NCBI GenBank assembly: GCA_025677825.1 | Contig: JAIXMO010000042.1 | Span: forward strand, 124,001 to 188,000 | Direction: 5' to 3' | Length of the DNA stretch: 64,000 nt | Source of the DNA: Helicostylum pulchrum | Taxonomy: Eukaryota; Mucoromycota; Mucoromycetes; Mucorales; Mucoraceae | Shown here: piece after piece, positions 2,542-18,766 of the stretch | Layout of the letters: every line of letters starts with the position of its first letter | Position numbering within the stretch: position 1 is the stretch's first letter | Notes under the pieces: generated by a model | Database searches by the model: none | What the model was told of the DNA's origin: nothing | Seen by the model: only the letters and a program-made list of their open reading frames with translations | Made by a program: the position numbers and the translations under genes

Positions 2542-4040
2542 TTAGAGAGTTCCTAAAGAGCCAGCGAGACCCTCTTCTCCAATAAGACCCTCTTCTCCAA
2601 TAAGACCCTCTTCACCGACAAGACCTTCTTCGCCAACAATGCCTCTCTTAAGGACCTTTGCTCTTAAATTATTGGCATTACCAGCAACAACTGCATGCTC
2701 AGCGATATGGGAAAGAGTTTCCTTGAGTTGAACATTGGGACGTTTAGCGTCAACTACAGAAGCACGCTTCTTTAAACCAGAGGCAACATTAGCAACAGCA
2801 TTATTAGCTACACCTGCGACAACTGCTTTATTGGCAATATGAGCAACAGTGTCCTGGGCTTGGACATTGAGATGTCCAGCGTCAGCTACAGAAGCACGCT
2901 TGAGGACTTTGACACGAGGCTGGTTGGCATTACCTACAACCTTGAGACAATTGAGAATATGAGAACCGGTATCCTTGGCTTGCAGATTGAGGTTACTAAG
3001 GTCAACCAAACCACCACGCTTGAGAACCTTGACATGAGGCCGGTTAGCATTACCAGCAACAACTGGGCGTTCAGCAATATGAGCAAGAGTATTTTTGAGT
3101 TGAACATTGGGACGTTTAGCGTCAACTACAGAAGCACGCTTGAGAACCTTGACATGAGGCCGGTTAGCATTACCAGCAACAACTGGGCGTTCAGCAATAT
3201 GAGCAAGAGTATTTTTGAGTTGAACATTGGGACGTTTAGCGTCAACTACAGAAGCACGCTTGAGAACCTTGACATGAGGCCGGTTAGCATTACCAGCAAC
3301 AACTGGGCGTTCAGCAATATGAGCAAGAGTATTTTTGAGTTGAACATTGGCGTGGCTAGCGTCTACAGCAGCACGCTTTTCTAACCCAGCGTCCTCCTCT
3401 TCGGTATCGAACTGTTCGTCGACATCACTGTCATCTTCAACGATATCATCATCATCAGGTCCACCCTCTTCAATTGAATCTTCAACAACGTCATCAACGT
3501 CACCTTCAACCGCATCTTCAACAATATCATCGGTATCGAGATCATCTTCGACAGAATCTTCGACAATATCGTCAAGATCAGCAACATCATCAAGATCGTT
3601 TTCAATTTCGAAATCGTCTTCAAGATTGTCATAGAAATCTATCAAGGTTATGGAATAATATCAGAATTTGATAATAATACATATATATCTAAAATTTTTT
3701 TACCAGGACGAGAGTTATGACCACCACCGATGCCACCGCCGTGATGAGAACCCGAACCCAAACCCGAACCTGAACCAGAGGAAAGGACATCTGCGTCAAG
3801 ATTATTGGCAACACCGGCTATAAGAAGACCATTGAGGATATTGTAACCAGTACGGTCAAGACCAACGTTAATTTTGGAAGCATCGACTAAAGAATCTGCA
3901 CTACGAGCTGCGAGACTAGATTTAAGGGCACCTTGAACTGCATTTTGTGTATCGAGAGAATTCTCAGAGTATAAAGAACGAGCGGAAACAGAAACCAAAA
4001 TACTGGCAATAAGACCAAGAGGAACGAATTTCATGTGCAT
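2542..4040 (-). CDS. Secreted repeat precursor with KR-delimited ~40-residue units, paralogue 2 of 3
   Basis: Exons 3704-4040 and 2542-3638, intron 3639-3703, about 477 residues. Order: signal peptide (MHMKFVPLGLIASIL, cleavage near SVSA); one copy of the shared motif (SLVDASKINVGLD...NLDADVL); a Gly/Ser/His linker; a very acidic DDIVED-type repeat region ending in KR; then six tandem units of about 40 residues. Each unit reads like ASVVDAKRPNVQL...VVAGNAN...KVLKR and ends in Lys-Arg. The tail is a five-residue repeat (LIGEEG type). Dibasic KR ends are the cleavage signal of the Golgi protease kexin (Kex2), so the inferred product is a set of similar secreted peptides. Units 1-3 are nearly identical. 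No known peptide family is recognised. It could instead be a structural wall protein, with KR incidental to the repeat. Confidence 0.85.
3019..3375 (-). repeat. Tandem ~120-bp coding repeats in the peptide precursor
   Basis: The KR-encoding ACGCTT falls at 3016, 3136 and 3256, exactly 120 bases apart, and again at 3373 (117). The three intervening units are almost base-identical, including third codon positions. Diverged units of the same length extend down to about 2640. This indicates recent duplication or gene conversion inside the coding sequence. Confidence 0.9.
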
Positions 4041-6771
4041 TTTTTTAAGTGTAGAAAATCTATTATTTTTTAATAGTATAAAAAAAAAATCTAAAGAATA
4101 AATTGAAAAGAAAATTAATATGTCTGAGAGTAAAATATATAAAAGATGAAGCTACTGTGTTTTTTTTTTACCTCTATGGGCTTTTCAAATGAAGAGTGTT
4201 TATTTTTTTCCTTTTTCTCGAGAAAAAAATAGAGTTCTTTTATATGTTTTCTTTTTGCTCTATCTTCTTATAATCTCAGTAAGAAATTAGGGTATTTTGT
4301 TCTTGTTTTTTTTAGTCGCAATCAAACTTTAATAAAGAGGAGAAGAGTTTAGGTACATGATAATCATAGTGGTACATTCTATATCTTACGGACCGAATAT
4401 AAATTTCGTAGTATAAATGCGTGATTCGTTATTGCAGATGGGTCATGCATAATGTGGTATAAAACAGAATCAAAGGACTATTATTGTATCTATTTATTTA
4501 TAAAACAAGTAGTAAAGAGACTTATTTTATTTGAAAAAAAACATTGACAAATGCTGATTATATCTATGTATTACATAATTTATTCCTTTTTATTTTTCTT
4601 TTCCTAATAAGATTTATTGCTTAAAATTGATAGATATAAATACAGTACAGTTTTTTTTTCAGCAGAAAATATACGTCTTACATACATGTACGTAAATCTT
4701 TTATTTTTTAGCTATAATAGAAACCCATAATAAAAACCCGTAAACACCTCTATTTTGAATACGTACATAAAATATAGATCATTTCCTTTTTTTTTATATG
4801 CACCTCAACTAAGTAAGCATAACATGGATTTACTACTTCTGGGTTCACATGTAATAATGAAACAGAATATGGAATCTCAATTGTACTTCTAGTATATTTA
4901 CCTTTACGTTATAATATAAAAGAAAACTATTCTCTTTTATTAGGTAATCAGAAAAAATATACAGCGAATAAATATCGGTAACTGACAGCTATAGCTAGAA
5001 ATAATTAGAGTTGGAGGATATGATTTGGTACCCCTCCTAAAACCAAAATTATTTGTTCCTATTATATTTCATCTTCAAACTCAGATAGCTTATATGGAAA
5101 AAATGTATACGACAAGGGAGAAGCTGTTATTATTTTATTTCAGGGAGATATATACCTCTTTTTTTTCACGCGCGATAATATACGCACCCGTAGTCAAATA
5201 TCAAATATTAGAATATACGTGCAGTACTATTTCAATAGTTTATGATTCCTTGTTTTCCTTTTCAGCAGCAATTCCACGTATTATACGGTAAAACAAACAC
5301 ATTGAACAGCGTTATTTATGTGACACGATAGTATCTAACCACGAAGGCATGTAAACAATATGGTTTTTTTTTTGTAATTTATAAATCCGTTATTGAATTA
5401 AGCCAATTCCACACTTTAGTACGACTGTTTCTAAAAAAGTAGTAGTTGTAAATTAGCGTATCCTTAGTTTAAGTAAGTATAGTATTTTGTAAATGGATCG
5501 GTCTAAGGGGTGAATTTGTACGCGAGGGACAGTTTTTAGATATGCTTTATAGTTTTTATACATGTTACGTAAAACTATTCCTATTTTTTTTCCTCATATA
5601 ATTTGTGACATTATTTCTTAAATTATACTACCAACAGAAAGAAGGAGCATTTACTTAATTTAGAATGGTTCAAATGCTATTTACTGACAACAGTTACTAT
5701 ATCTTTGTCGATCCCTTTTTTTCTGTATCTCAATCTGCATGCATTTTATTTCATGTGATAAACCGCTATGTTAGCTAAATAGCTTCGAAGCCAACATTTA
5801 GTAAATATTGTTTTATAACATGTACAGTATTTTCCCCATTTTTCCTTGTGTATCTTTAGTTAGTTAATGAAAATAAGCTGTCGTAAATAAAAGTTATTTT
5901 TTTTTTGATATTATTATCTCTAAAATTTCCTATAGGTGTATATAAATATATATGCACTTCATCTTCTCATAAAATCCAAAAACTATAAAGACGAAAATTG
6001 TTTACATCAAATCCTCATTAATTTATTATTATGTCAAACTTATTTAGATTGAAACGCTTGTGACATTGTTTTTATAAAAAAGTTTTCTCGGTAATAATTA
6101 TTGTGAAATACCGAGACCCCATAAATTAATTATAGTCGTTTAATATTAATTCTGAGTTAAAGAGGCTAATTGTCAATATTGGAAACCTATAAAATGGGTA
6201 AAATTTATTTATCAAGTAACAATTATATTATTAGAAGGTATTTAAAGCTATATCGTTTTTTTTATAGTTAGCCTTTTTTTTTTAAAAAAAAAGGGATTTT
6301 AGAAGAGACAATATCTAAAAAAAGAAAGAACTAAACGCTCAAAGTTTATTGGGCTATTTTTTTTTGAGCAGTAAATGTTGGGAGTACCCTAGACAAATTC
6401 ACAACAAAATAAGCTTTGAACGCCCTAATCAGTCTATTGCATGCATTGTAATTTCAGCTTAATGTTTATTGGAACACCTATCTGTGTCTGTGCATAAAAA
6501 CAGGCAACTGAAGTTACCACGCATGTAATTAGCAAGTAATGATATAGGCTACTTATAAGATTACAGAAGATTATCCCTCGGCACTATTTAAATAAACTTA
6601 CTTTTATGGAGAATCTATATATTCGTTATTTTAGTTTGATTACAGACTTTTATTAGATTAGAGTTAAAAAATTCCAAAAAAAAAATGCGTTATAAGTTTG
6701 TATAGTAAGAAAATGCTGGATGTTTAAAAATATGATAATGTGAAAGTTAACCAATTGTACGTAACGACAAT
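4041..6771. other. Intergenic between paralogues 2 and 3
   Basis: About 2.7 kb of AT-rich DNA with no supported gene. An 88-codon plus-strand ORF at 5025-5291 has no recognisable domain and is not accepted. A T/A palindromic run lies near 6270-6295. The block at 4457-4478 is shared with the region upstream of paralogue 1. Confidence 0.5.
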
Positions 6772-12852: not shown

Positions 12853-13803
12853 TTAAAAAATAGGATAAACTGGTTTCAGGTAATGAAAGGAGGAGGGGCT
12901 TGGGACACTTTTACTCTCCTCTAGGTCTCCTTGATGAAATGAATTTTGTTGTTGGTATATGGCAGTTGCAGCGAGTAAGATAATTAAAGCAGCAGTAGCA
13001 AGGGTTTTTTTGTTTTGTTGAATGTTAGAGGATCTTTTTATGGTGGGGGTGATGGAGAGGAATGTTGGGGTTCTGCAGTCTCTGAAACTAGAAGCGCGAG
13101 GACGTTGATTAATATTTACAGATAATGATGATTCTGAAAAAGTAGAGGAGGTCTTACAGCAAGTAATGGACTCTGACCTTCTTGTTCTTGTTTGTATATT
13201 ATGTTTTTTAGTTGGTAGAATGACAAATTTTTCGTATTCTTGTAATTGATATAATAATTCCATATTGGGTCGAATTCCAGGCGCCCTTTCCTGTACATAT
13301 TTCAATGCACGATCCAAGGACCAATTTTGGCCTGCTAAAGAATTTTCAACACAAGTAATTTTTGCTAATTGACGACTGACGCATAATAAATAAGCAATTA
13401 CTAGAGCTGCTGATCTTTCAATACCTTGTTGACAATGGATGAATACATTTTTTCGTTTGCTGTGTGCCAATTGTATTTTTGAAATAGCTTGCGCGAATTC
13501 GACATGGGCTAAATTATTTTGACTATGTGTCCAACGTATATGATGATATTCTTTAATATTGGGAATTGCAGTAATGTTAATTTCGCTAGCGACGTTGATC
13601 ACACAGTTTATATCGAGTTTATTTAACTGAGTCCCATCTAATGCGTTATAATAAGAGCCCAAGTATAAATTAGGTAGAATACAAGCTGGGCCATGCTTAT
13701 ATAAATCGTTTTTATTATCTTGTTCTCTATAAAGTAGAGATGATTTCGGTGAAGAAGCAAGTTTTAAAGCAAGTTTTTTAGGATTCTTTTTTAAGTTAGT
13801 CAT
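12853..13803 (-). CDS. Dual-specificity protein phosphatase with C-terminal membrane anchor
   Basis: Intronless; 316 residues from the ATG at 13803. An in-frame ATG at 13857 would add 18 residues, but those are hydrophobic and unlike the family start. The catalytic domain covers about residues 35-200. It has the DSP opening (GPACILPNLYLGSY), INCVINVA, and the signature HCQQGIERSAALVIAYLL, in which Cys is the nucleophile and Arg binds phosphate. The region that normally carries the general-acid Asp reads IRWTHSQNNL, with no Asp. After a Ser/Arg-rich linker the C-terminus has a hydrophobic segment (TLATAALIILLAATAIY) typical of a tail anchor, so the enzyme probably sits on an intracellular membrane facing the cytosol. 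The family dephosphorylates Thr/Tyr in MAP kinases; the substrate here is unknown. Confidence 0.85.
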   Translation of the reverse strand: MTNLKKNPKKLALKLASSPKSSLLYREQDNKNDLYKHGPACILPNLYLGSYYNALDGTQLNKLDINCVINVASEINITAIPNIKEYHHIRWTHSQNNLAHVEFAQAISKIQLAHSKRKNVFIHCQQGIERSAALVIAYLLCVSRQLAKITCVENSLAGQNWSLDRALKYVQERAPGIRPNMELLYQLQEYEKFVILPTKKHNIQTRTRRSESITCCKTSSTFSESSLSVNINQRPRASSFRDCRTPTFLSITPTIKRSSNIQQNKKTLATAALIILLAATAIYQQQNSFHQGDLEESKSVPSPSSFHYLKPVYPIF

Positions 13804-14161
13804 AATAGTGTAATAAAGAGGAAAAAAGAAGAAGGTAATATATGTGTATGTGTACAAAAAGAAGAAGAGATATTTATAATTAAAATTGAATCATCAACAT
13901 GCATGTAGATCTAATTAATTTAACATTACCCAACCAAAATCAAATATTCCAATTCCAAAGGGAGGCTTTTTCCCTCTTTTTTAAATTCATGTAATTTACA
14001 ATATTCTCCTACACGCGCGGCGAGAAAAGACCTATTTTTGGAAGGAATTATCAGTAAAAAATATTTTGACCAATGGTTGATTTTACGTACCCTTTTGGTT
14101 GTGTAATACCTTTAAGTGCAGAGCACACCATATTCGAAATGGCGGTTTAATATTAAAGAAA

Positions 14162-16735
14162 TTATTGTTGTTCGGATGATGGGCTTCTACAAAATATGCC
14201 AGGCCTTCCAGAACCAGACCAGACGGATGAACAAATATCCCACATATTCTTTGAAGCATCGGTATCTCTATTCCATAATAATGTTCTGCAATTGGTACAA
14301 CAAAGAACCTTATTATTAGACTGGAGACGAACGTTACTTTTGGTTTTACAAGTATTACAGACCTGGATAATTATTTTTAGATTGTGTAGCTTGTTATTAT
14401 GAAAATATTATGTACTTACGACGGAAGTTCTAAATTCGTTAATGTCCAATAGACACAATTCTCCTAGTTTTTCTCGTCTTCTGAGATTTTTATAGACTAT
14501 AGAAGTTATGCCATGCTGGTGGCCTTTAAAGTGAACGCCATCTTTGTTAAACATGCCATCACCAAAAATAACCAGAGGCATTTTACCGTTGTCGAACTTT
14601 TTGAATTTACCATGTCTCAATTTATTTAGCTTATTATAGAATCACAAAAATGAAATTATTTACCTGGAGAATGGTGTTGTAACCGGAGCAGACGCAGAAG
14701 GCAACACTGGTGCATTAACAAGTCTATTCTTCCTGTTATTGCGTCTTCGTCTCTTGTTCTTGGAGGTTTTTGGTCGCTTTCATCTTTTCTTGTTATATTT
14801 CTCTCCTCTATTTATCAAAATATTAACGGCAGCATCGTGTGCCTTTTGTTTTGCCATATAATTCAGCCATCCCATCTCGGATGTGTTAAAGCCATAGAAT
14901 TCAAATAAATCGGCCATATGTAGAAGCATATATCGTGCATGCTCTCGATACTTGACCAAGCTAGTAGTCTTTGTGGTCGGGACGCTGGATTCAATAGTGC
15001 TAACACCCATTCTTCTCTTCACCTCTTGTTGAAATTTTAAATGTTGTATAGTACCACCGTAGGAATAAAACTCTTTAGTGGACATTCGCCGGATTTCGTT
15101 ATCTCCACGAAAGCTAGTAAACACATGGTTTCTTCCTGGATTAATGGTGCAAGGCCTAAAGTAAAGATCGATTTCATCTTGTGTAAAACCTTGCAACTCA
15201 AGCTTCACCATCGGGTTTTCCGTTCTGATTCTAGCAAAGGTAAAGTGACAAGTATATTCGTCTGTCTTGACTTCATTGATGAAGATCTTGTTCATTCTAT
15301 CAGATAAAGTAGACACATATTGAGCCCTATTATTATCAAGTTATATTAGACACGTTGCTTTTTTTATAATATTTAGTGTTACTTACGATTTTATCTTCAA
15401 ATTGGGAAATTTACTGAAATCGAAAGCTTCATAAAATTTGGTAAGAGTACTTTCATAATCAATCTCAGCTATATTTCCTTGACGCGCAAAAGAATTTATA
15501 TTGGTGCCATCTATCTTTATAAATCTCCATTGCAGCCCGGGTGTTGGAAATAAAGAAAATAACTTTTGCAACCGGATGGATTCTGTACGAGTAGTATTAG
15601 TTTCGGCACCGGAAACAATTCGATGATCTATCATCACAGAGTCAGTCAAATCTTGAAGTATTTGCAACAATACTCTAGAAGCGTTCCTGCCACCTTCCGC
15701 TTGAGGGATGACGGCTTCACTAACTGTGACATTATTTCTTGCTTGGGTTAAAGTATTTTGTATAGTAGTAAGTATATCAGTAGACAACCTATCAATTGAC
15801 CGGATGTAGTTGTTGATGGTTTCGGATGAATTAACAGAGCCGAGGATAGCAGTAGCCAATCTTTCAGAAGTATTTCGAATATTAGTAATACACAATGATG
15901 CGGTTTGTATGAGTTATTTTGATCTACTTGATGAGGCCAAGTTATGATTCATGCTGTTGGTAACATCAGTAACATTAGTCGTGATAAGTCTAGAAGAGCG
16001 CAATATGATATCTACATTTACATTAAAGTTAAATGAGACGGGTTTGAGGTCGCTGATGCTCTGCGTATGATTCTAAAACATGTTGTTAACAGCAATTGTT
16101 AGTCTTCGTCTTCATTAGGTGCTTGAGAGGCGACAACAGCAGTTTCAGTTAAGCTTACCAGGACTTTCGCGCTATTAATTGTACTTTCTACTGCTGAACA
16201 GTTGCGTGTGTTCCTTGTAAGAGGATTGTTGCTAGTCTTGGTAGCTTTTCTGTTGCCTGAAGGATATTTTCGGAAACCGTTACATTATATCTTTCTTGTA
16301 ACTGTTCCTTGAAATTATTGCTTTGGTTAACGGATTTTGTCTGGTAGATGTAGGTAACTTCTTTATATTGTTAATCAGCGTACCATTATCAATAAAAAGT
16401 CTCGATCTTGTTCGAAGTTGTTCATTTTCGATAGTAGCAAAAGCATTTTTGTCGGGTTCTTCGGTGTTGGTTATTAAAAGTAACGCATAATCATCCACAA
16501 TTCTTTTAATGATATAAGAAGCGATTTCAGGAAATTCTACGGATAATTTGTAAATCAGATACTTTCAAAATTTTCCTTGATATGTTTCTACATAGTAATT
16601 GGCATATGTTGCGGAGATCGTAACGCAAGCTGTAGAGAGACATTGTGCATATCCTCTTATAGCCCCAATAGGTTTGATGGAAGTTGGAAACTGCACGAGA
16701 AAGTCATTATAAGTTTGTACGAAATCTGGAACGGT
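14162..16735 (-). pseudogene. Fanzor (eukaryotic TnpB-like RNA-guided nuclease) pseudogene
   Basis: Exons readable on the minus strand: about 16735 down to 16210 (broken), about 16070 down to 15387, 15326-14664, 14615-14420, and a last exon from about 14350 to the stop at 14162-14164. Introns at 15327-15386, 14616-14663 and about 14351-14419 preserve phase. The C-terminal half has the Fanzor/TnpB order: a RuvC-I-like PGRNHVFTSF segment; a KR-rich region; VIFGDGMFNKDG with FKGHQHG; INEFRTSVVCNTC; a second Cys pair (LCCTNC) completing a zinc finger; and LWNRDTDASKNM (RuvC-III). The family are nucleases guided by an adjacent noncoding RNA, spread by transposons and later domesticated or decayed. 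Lesions: in-frame stops at 16565-16567, 15914-15916 and 14780-14782; frame changes near 16300 and 16200; and AAT (Asn) at 15140-15142, where the RuvC-I Asp is expected. The element is therefore very probably dead. The N-terminal boundary is unclear. Confidence 0.8.
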
Positions 16736-17210
16736 ATCGGGAAAAGTAGAGAAAAAGCAAAGAAAAAGAAAAGGTACTTTATTGTGGCACTGATAAGAAA
16801 AAGACGATTTATAGAATCTGTATTTTATTGATTTATTGGGAGCCCCCGATACATACAGGTAATATTAGAGTGATATAATTTAGACGTAATTTTAAACAAG
16901 TAAAATACCTGATTATCAACTTACATAAAACTATATACGATGTTATCTACATATTACTTTGATTCCTTGCCACTACGTTATAACAATTGATAAATATATA
17001 GAACAGAGCGTGGTGTAACAGCTATTTAAGAGTTGTATTACTCGAATACCCTTGCCTATCCCCCTATATACTGCAATCGCTTTTTTTTTAAAACACTGCA
17101 ATTTAAGCCCGACAGGACTTTTTTCGTCAAAAGGCCTACCAACTGACAACCTTTAACTGACCTGAAAGAGGGAATCATATAAGGAAAAGATAGATTTTGT
17201 AAAGTACTGC

Positions 17211-17252
17211 AAGTCTCTAAACCCGCAGGGAGACGACTCCGTCGAGCGTAGC
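17211..17252 (+). repeat. Dispersed 42-bp repeat, copy A
   Basis: Begins AAGTCTCTAAACC and ends CGAGCGTAGC. It matches positions 35298-35339 on the opposite strand at 38 of 42 bases. It is clearly GC-richer than its surroundings. Confidence 0.75.
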
Positions 17253-17946
17253 GAGGTAGCAGGCTAGTCTTTTCTTTTATATTATTTTAGAACTTAGTTT
17301 ACAATACGTCTTTCTCTCATAATTTTACAAGCTAATTTTAAGTCTTAAACTAACACAATGATACAATACAAGTAATAATCAGATATGTAATGTTCGGCTG
17401 GGAACAGAATTAAAAAGTAGAGCAGATAGATATAGATGAAATGGGGGGGGGGGGCATAGATATCTTGCTAAAATGATTCAAATAGTTAATTAAACAGGAC
17501 TAAAAGTTGTAATCGATGGTTATATCAATAAAATGTATCTTTTCTGGTTCCAACTCTAAAAGTTATATTTCTCTAAAAACTAGGATAGCTTAAAATTAGA
17601 GCTTCACAAATAAGATTATATAAAAATTTCAGAAGAGCCACATACTAAAGAAAACAGTTATATTGTAATTCCTTTGACACACTGCTTTATCTGGTTGTCA
17701 TTTGTTTAAAGGTATTTGTTTATATGTATTACACAGATAAAGAATTACTCATATATGTCATTTTTAGGCAATGTTTTTGGTCTGCTCTAGTCCATTATCC
17801 GTTGTTGCATTCATTCGTTTGTCAATTTGACGGAGCAACGCTCGCTAGTTACTTTTTTTTATCCATAGAGCAACCCAATTACTCGACAGGTACTTCTACT
17901 CATTACCTAGTCTTAATATAAATTAATTCGGTTTTATATTACCTTT

Positions 17947-18013
17947 CATCCAAGTCTTCATCAGTTTCGACATCGGCAACTGATGAAAAAGCTATTCGAT
18001 AATAGCTTGGATG
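17947..18013. other. Nested inverted-repeat element (predicted three-way junction)
   Basis: The outer arms CATCCAA (17947-17953) and TTGGATG (18007-18013) enclose two hairpins. The first is TTCATCAGTT/AACTGATGAA (17957-17966 with 17978-17987). The second is GCTATT/AATAGC (17991-17996 with 18001-18006, loop CGAT). All three stems are perfect, so the element folds as a Y on either strand. It matches no RNA family I recognise and is not a tRNA. Confidence 0.55.
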
Positions 18014-18174
18014 TCAGAAAAATACCAAGTGTATAGTTAACGTAAAGATACGTCACATAAGTAGATATTACGAAATATTTTTAAATACGAATTAAATTTT
18101 TTTTTCCCTTTTCTTTCATTTTATTTTTTTATGTATACCTTTTACAAAAGCTGGTCGCTAACTTTTTTCTTCAG

Positions 18175-18766
18175 TAGGTGTATTATCTGTTAAATTAAGT
18201 AAATTGATCTATGAACAATTAAATGTTATGGTAAGTTAAACGTTTTTTTTTGCTACTCTGTTTTCTAATACGTTTTATTAATTAGAGAAACATTCAGATA
18301 TAAAAAAAGGTAAAACGAAATGTATACACTTTTTTAAATGAAATACTAATTATTCTTATTTAGCTACTTATATGTTCTCTGTCTACTTCATATCTGCTCT
18401 ATATAATACTTCTAAAGGTATATATCATTTAGTTATTTTCTTTAATATTCAAAAACTAATAGTATTTGCTATTCATAGGTAAGCCTTTTTACTATTGCTT
18501 TCTTCTTTTCTGTATACTTTCGCTGCTCTCTATTTACTGGTATACATGATACTAGTTAGTATACCATGATGCTCTGCTCCATCCTGTACCATTTGTATAT
18601 TTGAATATAAATTTTTTTTACGAATAATTTTGAATTTTCAGTAACAGAAACTGAATTTCAATCCAATCTTCAAAAAACTGTTCATTCCCAAATAGGAAGG
18701 TTTTATGAACAAAATGCTCAAACCCCATTAGCTTTTAAAGAGCCGAAAATCTTAATGAGTGTGTAA
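18175..18766 (+). CDS. Possible small multi-exon gene or gene remnant, 5' end not found
   Basis: Several stretches look like exons on the plus strand. 18175-18230 reads GVLSVKLSKLIYEQLNVM and ends at GTAAGT. The last, 18642-18766, follows a TTTTCAG acceptor, begins TETEFQSNLQKTVH, ends at a TAA, and is followed by AATAAA at about 18800. Between them at least two short exon-like pieces can be read (KHSDIKK..., TYMFSVYFISALYN). I could not close a single in-phase chain or find a start codon, so it may be a pseudogene. The product is not recognised. Confidence 0.3.

Follow-up and report, generated by a model that had tools for sequence, protein, structure and literature searches.

A Fanzor1 remnant on the minus strand

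The window (the whole 64-kb stretch analysed, positions 124001-188000 of contig C106 in a genome of 32.2 Mb and 168 contigs) holds the remnant of a Fanzor1 gene at 14162-16735, on the minus strand. The original prediction had read a decayed Fanzor locus from six peptide blocks, PGRNHVFTSF, GDGMFNKDG/GHQHG, INEFRTSV, VCNTC, LCCTNC and LWNRDTDASKN, and all of them lie where it had placed them. The splice that it drew between INEFRTSV and VCNTC is borne out as well: a 57-nt intron can be removed there with the frame kept. Two further frame-keeping introns, of 48 and 60 nt, can be placed upstream in the gene. All three are short putative introns of the GT-AG type, and with them removed the four exons read as a single frame with one internal stop. 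The spliced frame carries RuvC-I, RuvC-II and TNB zinc-finger/RuvC-III blocks, arranged in Fanzor order. The remnant lies within a larger element, and the features of both are as follows, in the direction of the gene.

14010-18765, minus: whole transposon copy, 4756 bp including the terminal TA on each side; no gene other than the Fanzor remnant was recognised in it; its ends are common to copies elsewhere with other flanks
18755-18765, minus: element 5′ end, reading TACACACTCAT along the gene strand; C106b, C102 and C90 begin identically, C54 and C1 with slight differences
16732-16733, no strand: point where the window copy is without about 600 nt of N-terminal coding sequence present in C90 and C140 (in blastn the alignment is interrupted at W 3267-3269, where both have an extra 602-609 nt)
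15914-16735, minus: remnant of the N-terminal half, frame-shifted and with stops (tblastn with sibling frames: frame changes 2-1-3-2, stops met); 16735 is the start of homology to the N-terminal part of sibling C90
15387-15913, minus: open exon 5′ of RuvC-I, from frame reading
15327-15386, minus: putative intron, 60 nt, GTAAGT...ATAG, from splice-site reading
14664-15326, minus: exon with the RuvC-I block INPGR (Asn; Asp in most relatives read) and one in-frame stop
14616-14663, minus: putative intron, 48 nt, GTAAAT...TGAG
14420-14615, minus: exon with the FGDGMF block and INEFRTSV (catalytic Glu position)
14363-14419, minus: putative intron, 57 nt, GTAAGT...CCAG, the splice of the original prediction
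14162-14362, minus: last exon, closed by a stop at 14162-14164; contains the zinc finger CxxC...CxxC and LWNRDTDASKN, in which the RuvC-III Asp is retained
14010-14161, minus: about 150 nt from the stop codon to the transposon end, the place expected for a Fanzor omegaRNA; can be aligned among sibling copies
14010-14020, minus: element 3′ end, CCGCGCGTGTA on the gene strand; the 11-nt pattern is found once in the window

Beside the element, at 12853-13890 on the minus strand, lies an ordinary host gene for a dual-specificity phosphatase (345 aa; PF00782, E 3.7e-25). Within the 5′ non-coding part of the element, 16853-17024 and 17386-17634 recur at many places in the genome at 73-88% identity, and are perhaps small nested repeats.

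Ends and copies of the element

The ends of the element, TACACAC...GCGTGTA, recur elsewhere beside different flanks. Across sites the copies begin with TACACACTCA[TC]TGAG and finish with GGTCTTTTCCCACCGCGCGTGTA, with small changes in some of them. A 20-position pattern with this 3′ end occurs 11 times genome-wide at up to 2 mismatches, against once for the reversed control. Since these ends are common to several places with different flanks, the Fanzor1 gene of the window is carried by a transposable element.

When the DNA of 13900-18600 was searched against the genome, it matched long copies in C90 and C140 (about 90% identity), others in C144, C88 and C102 (85-92%) and many shorter pieces. 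The comparison of copies covered eleven places including the window, with C104 entered in both orientations. Different interior parts are missing from the C1, C92, C132 and C102 copies, and in C104 about 46 nt of the 3′ end follow directly on 8 nt of the 5′ end. For C140, C132 and C92 the 5′ end is cut short or hard to make out, C54 is seen at its 5′ part alone, the C102 matches stop short of the 3′ end, and C144 is without either end.

The flanks of the window copy, C90 and C106b have no target-site duplication beyond a possible TA, nor, by eye, a 9-bp duplication of the MuDR type. A TA, such as target duplication by a Tc1/mariner-type carrier would leave, stands at the outer edge of the whole ends, but it may belong to the element itself. 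No exact inverted repeats of 12 nt or more join the two sides of the window copy, and around the Fanzor loci such repeats are scattered pairs of 12-13 nt, with nothing longer. The likeness between the two ends is a short imperfect TACAC[AG]C alone. On these observations the window element does not fit a MuDR-type carrier, which would have long terminal inverted repeats and a 9-bp target duplication. No transposase was recognised by eye in the open frames of C140 or C90, which held Fanzor-like sequence only. The window element is a non-autonomous-looking DNA transposon with Fanzor as its sole recognised gene.

Two other loci deserve mention. At C106:105500-111300 (L034), 560 nt from the 5′ part and 60 nt from the 3′ part of the window element, in the same orientation, flank what looks by eye like an MCM-helicase gene; the content is that gene plus end fragments, and we make no claim of a single 5-kb element with different cargo between these ends. 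Genome searches also found two, and only two, proteins of the Tc5/pogo type, at L043 (C152:15500-22000) 3629-5200 and L012 (C112:33000-40800) 5360-6094, each with a Fanzor exon about 1-1.5 kb away. By eye, the protein of L043 resembles a pogo-type transposase of greater length that contains a stop. Fanzor and transposase may be paired at these two loci. As a partner for the window element the pogo-type transposase was dropped, because L043 has no good match to the element's ends and L012 has none to its 3′ end.

Identity of the gene

The profile PF07282 (Cas12f1-like TNB) is the domain named OrfB_Zn_ribbon by Bao and Jurka (2013; PMC3627910). The original prediction held that the spliced exons should match Fanzor or TnpB profiles with RuvC and zinc-finger blocks in order. 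The blocks are in that order, and the last two exons (3 and 4), when spliced, match PF07282 at E 2.1e-5 and 25.0 bits, 1.3 bits short of the curated cut-off (26.3). Taken separately, the window pieces match no Pfam nuclease family at E≤1, and the last exon (14162-14362) alone does not match PF07282. Against the PDB, one single exon gave no match. The spliced C-terminal half has a sole match at E≤10, to Spizellomyces punctatus Fanzor1 (SpuFz1), at E 7.4e-4. A profile of five copies (window, L014, L024, L027 and C140) matches SpuFz1 at 3.2e-15 and Parasitella parasitica Fanzor1 (PpFz1) at 2.5e-8, so that by this profile SpuFz1 is the closest solved relative in sequence and PpFz1 the second. Weaker matches follow to LaTranC (2.2e-6), Cas12m (1e-3), Cas12f (0.0065) and IS605 OrfB entries (from 0.035). 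As judged by profile scores, the window gene appears closer to Fanzor1 than to TnpB or Cas12. It should be added that the window copy's own PF07282 score is below the cut-off and its own PDB match modest; the strong scores come via paralogues.

An open Fanzor-like frame at C158:323164 (L042), found separately, can be aligned with the spliced frame over 255 aa (E 1.6e-19, 26% identity). As this alignment exists, and as the spliced exons match PF07282 where the pieces apart do not, the resemblance goes beyond chance. The [TS][TS]xxC..C ... RD motif of Fanzor1 (PMC3627910) is also present in the spliced frame, as RTSVVCNTC ... CCTNC ... NRD. The Fanzor/TnpB identity proposed for 14162-16735 is thus upheld by the PF07282 and SpuFz1 matches and by the motif order.

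An unspliced six-frame search of the genome with PF07282 gave 18 matches, 17 of them above the cut-off. The window locus is not among them, as expected, since an intron splits its domain. In a control, PF07282 matched in 6 of 14 genomes, all six of bacteria or archaea. An Rfam search over the whole 64-kb window returned no family at the gathering score.

Catalytic residues and decay

In SpuFz1 the catalytic residues are D383, E541 and D606 (PMC11423790). At these places the alignment puts Asn, Glu and Asp in the window copy. The first Asp is present in sibling C140 and in most paralogues read. A motif scan for RuvC-I over 21 sequences (the window and 20 other loci with longer DNA) found the pattern in the right context in nine, with Asp in seven and Asn in two (the window, and L009 with the C90 copy). 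In the remaining 12 the block was missed by the pattern or is absent; by eye, Asp is found in L012, L014, L027 and L028. We take the Asn of the window copy to reflect loss during decay, which leaves its place in the Fanzor1 family unaffected. Guillardia Fanzor1 has a natural Asn at the third catalytic place (PMC11423790); this precedent does not apply to the window copy, whose Asn is at the first.

The decay is otherwise plain: with the change at RuvC-I go frame shifts, stops and the absence of about 600 N-terminal nt. All four copies read (window, C140, C90 and C144) have stops, frame changes or both. The window copy retains 76 nt at 14177-14252 that are missing from both C90 and C140, and C144 has a gap-free counterpart of the same length. 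This deletion, common to C140 and C90 and inside the last exon, suggests that both derive from one damaged copy; segmental duplication is an alternative. Of the 4379 columns without gaps in the three long copies, 91.0% are invariant; the figure is 91.7% for the mostly exonic 14162-15913, 90.7% for the non-coding sequence on the 5′ side and 91.0% for that on the 3′ side. Such equal conservation of coding and non-coding parts is as expected for sequence drifting without constraint. Of the original prediction, then, identity, order and decay stand; the copy is not only decayed, as its N-terminal part is missing, and the locus is more precisely a Fanzor1-like gene within a 4.76-kb element.

Relatives elsewhere in the genome

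Live relatives were expected elsewhere in the genome; relatives were found, with two candidates for intact copies among them. The RuvC-II exon of the window has at least 43 matches at at least 41 places, the window included (two each in C90 and C140); both counts are lower bounds. Longer DNA was taken around 20 of these places besides the window, and around C152, and frames were read by eye in L016, L024, L027, L020, L011, L012, L014, L023, L028, L013, L018 and the C90 and C140 copies. C144, C132:2400-5600, C106:105500-111300 and C158:323164 came from other searches.

Two of the relatives, C158:323164 and C102:24330 (L014), look open and are the candidates for intact Fanzor-like genes. The former has two long frames (383 and 476 aa) with, by eye, a cysteine-rich N-terminal knuckle, VDPG, VNEYLTS-CxxC and NRD; its second frame matches PF07282 at 1e-10, and its best PDB match is Guillardia Fanzor1 at 0.07. 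The latter has, by eye, long frames across most of the protein; its last exon alone scores 0.058 against PF07282, below the cut-off. Paralogue L027, with its zinc-ribbon part in one exon, is above the cut-off (2.4e-10), as is L042, and its PDB matches are to TnpB-like, Cas12m and, weakly, Guillardia Fanzor1 entries (E 1.9e-4 to 0.18). With 26-36% identity to the window frame, the open frames are members of subfamilies further removed from it.

About 2.2 kb downstream of the C90 copy, at L009 6479-6713, there is another Fanzor C-terminus of a different kind (RDINAALNM). Over 48-70 nt, the DNA just after it matches the 3′ side of Fanzor loci L014, L016, L017 and L021.

The 3′ end and a putative omegaRNA

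By analogy with Fanzor and TnpB, a live Fanzor1 protein would bind an omegaRNA transcribed from the element's 3′ end and carrying a guide that comes from the adjacent DNA. It would cut sites matching the guide, probably helping the element to persist. Movement of the element would need a transposase from another element, acting in trans.

The 3′ end might then outlast the protein: a locus whose protein is dead could still yield an omegaRNA with a flank guide and serve an intact Fanzor in trans. The last 150 nt do align well in six copies, with 60 of 67 columns invariant at 14050-14116; the flanks differ between copies, open Fanzor-like frames are present in the genome, and in Spizellomyces ghost elements are reported whose omegaRNA scaffolds work (PMC10432273). 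Yet conservation of the 3′ non-coding part does not exceed that of the element at large: across the three long copies, the fraction of invariant columns is 0.91 for either. Among these copies the 14050-14116 run is 95.5% invariant, a value equalled by 952 of 4313 windows of that length, and the run was dropped as a sign of a constrained omegaRNA. Folding of the 150 nt is no better than that of shuffles in all four copies folded (z -0.38 to +0.98). A conserved end may be a mere transposase binding site, and the open frames come from the more distant subfamilies. We consider such a locus unlikely. An extension of the idea is that the dead copies and the internally deleted derivatives, down to the roughly 50 nt of C104, form a guide library used in trans by an intact Fanzor of another subfamily, each copy keeping the 3′ end with a different flank. 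This is a speculative reading, and an improbable one.

Other readings

Could the locus be a host zinc-finger gene, unrelated to TnpB and Fanzor and alike in its CxxC pairs only? The failure of single exons to match a Pfam nuclease, and of one to match the PDB, would agree with this. Against it, RuvC-I, RuvC-II and RuvC-III blocks occur in Fanzor order, the dispersed matches number at least 43, there are transposon-like common ends, and the PF07282, five-copy profile and PDB matches are taken as refuting it; the reading is very improbable. A nuclease-dead Fanzor, retained as an RNA-guided DNA binder after the change of the RuvC-I Asp to Asn, is hardly credible: INPGR is seen in both the window copy and L009/C90, but these copies also have stops or frame shifts, the window copy has lost its N-terminal part, the near sibling C140 has Asp, and exons are no more conserved than non-coding parts (0.917 vs. 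0.907-0.910). A bacterial TnpB, from contamination or recent transfer, would have the same C-terminal motifs, but the three putative spliceosomal introns and the better profile match to Fanzor1 are taken as refuting it, matches lie on many contigs, and it can be set aside.

We thus prefer the view, with a probability of about 95%, that a DNA transposon, with a multi-exon Fanzor1 as its single recognised gene, is present in the window as a dead copy. The gene identity, the frame-consistent splicing, the element ends, the multiple copies and the decay are each shown from the sequence.

Relation to known elements

Mucor, Rhizopus, Phycomyces and Parasitella are mucoralean fungi, and the short introns, low G+C and Fanzor content seen here suggest a mucoralean host for the window element too. 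Bao and Jurka (2013; PMC3627910) describe ten Fanzor1 families in Mucor circinelloides, four in Rhizopus oryzae and three in Phycomyces. The window element resembles those of M. circinelloides, R. oryzae and Phycomyces blakesleeanus, where Fanzor1 is described in DNA transposons without their own transposase and in several families per genome (PMC3627910). The window gene and these elements have in common the motif D-X-[TS][TS]-xx-C4 zinc finger-X-RD. In contrast, ROr-4, PBl-3 and MCi-4 are described there with MuDR-type inverted repeats and 9-bp duplications, whereas the window element, compared with them by description, has no long inverted repeats and at most a TA.

The Fanzor1 and ghost Spu-1 elements of Spizellomyces punctatus are also similar: they occur in multiple copies, some complete, some partial and some without Fanzor, and their ends are related. 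For Spizellomyces the published numbers are 42 Fanzor loci and 134 ghost elements (Saito et al.; PMC10432273). SpuFz1 differs in having a single open frame, 30-nt inverted repeats and an omegaRNA seen by RNA sequencing (PMC10432273), whereas the window element has introns, no such repeats found, and a putative omegaRNA. The Parasitella parasitica Fanzor1 (PDB 9cf0) is an active nuclease in which a domain inserted into RuvC binds cyclophilin (PMC11423790). With the TnpB of IS200/IS605 and IS607 the window gene shares RuvC and the TNB zinc ribbon (PF07282), but the profile match is weaker and TnpB sits in other transposon families. Fanzor transposons are reported to reach up to hundreds of copies (PMC10711439).

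In closing, mucoralean Fanzor1, its amplification and Fanzor-less ghost elements are already in print, and the window copy is a further decayed member. A Fanzor1 transposon family has been amplified and has decayed in a fungal genome, where derivatives with internal deletions remain and some Fanzor-like frames are still open. This adds one well-bounded family to the known pattern, with the overall picture unchanged, and is useful for gathering fungal Fanzors that may be active.
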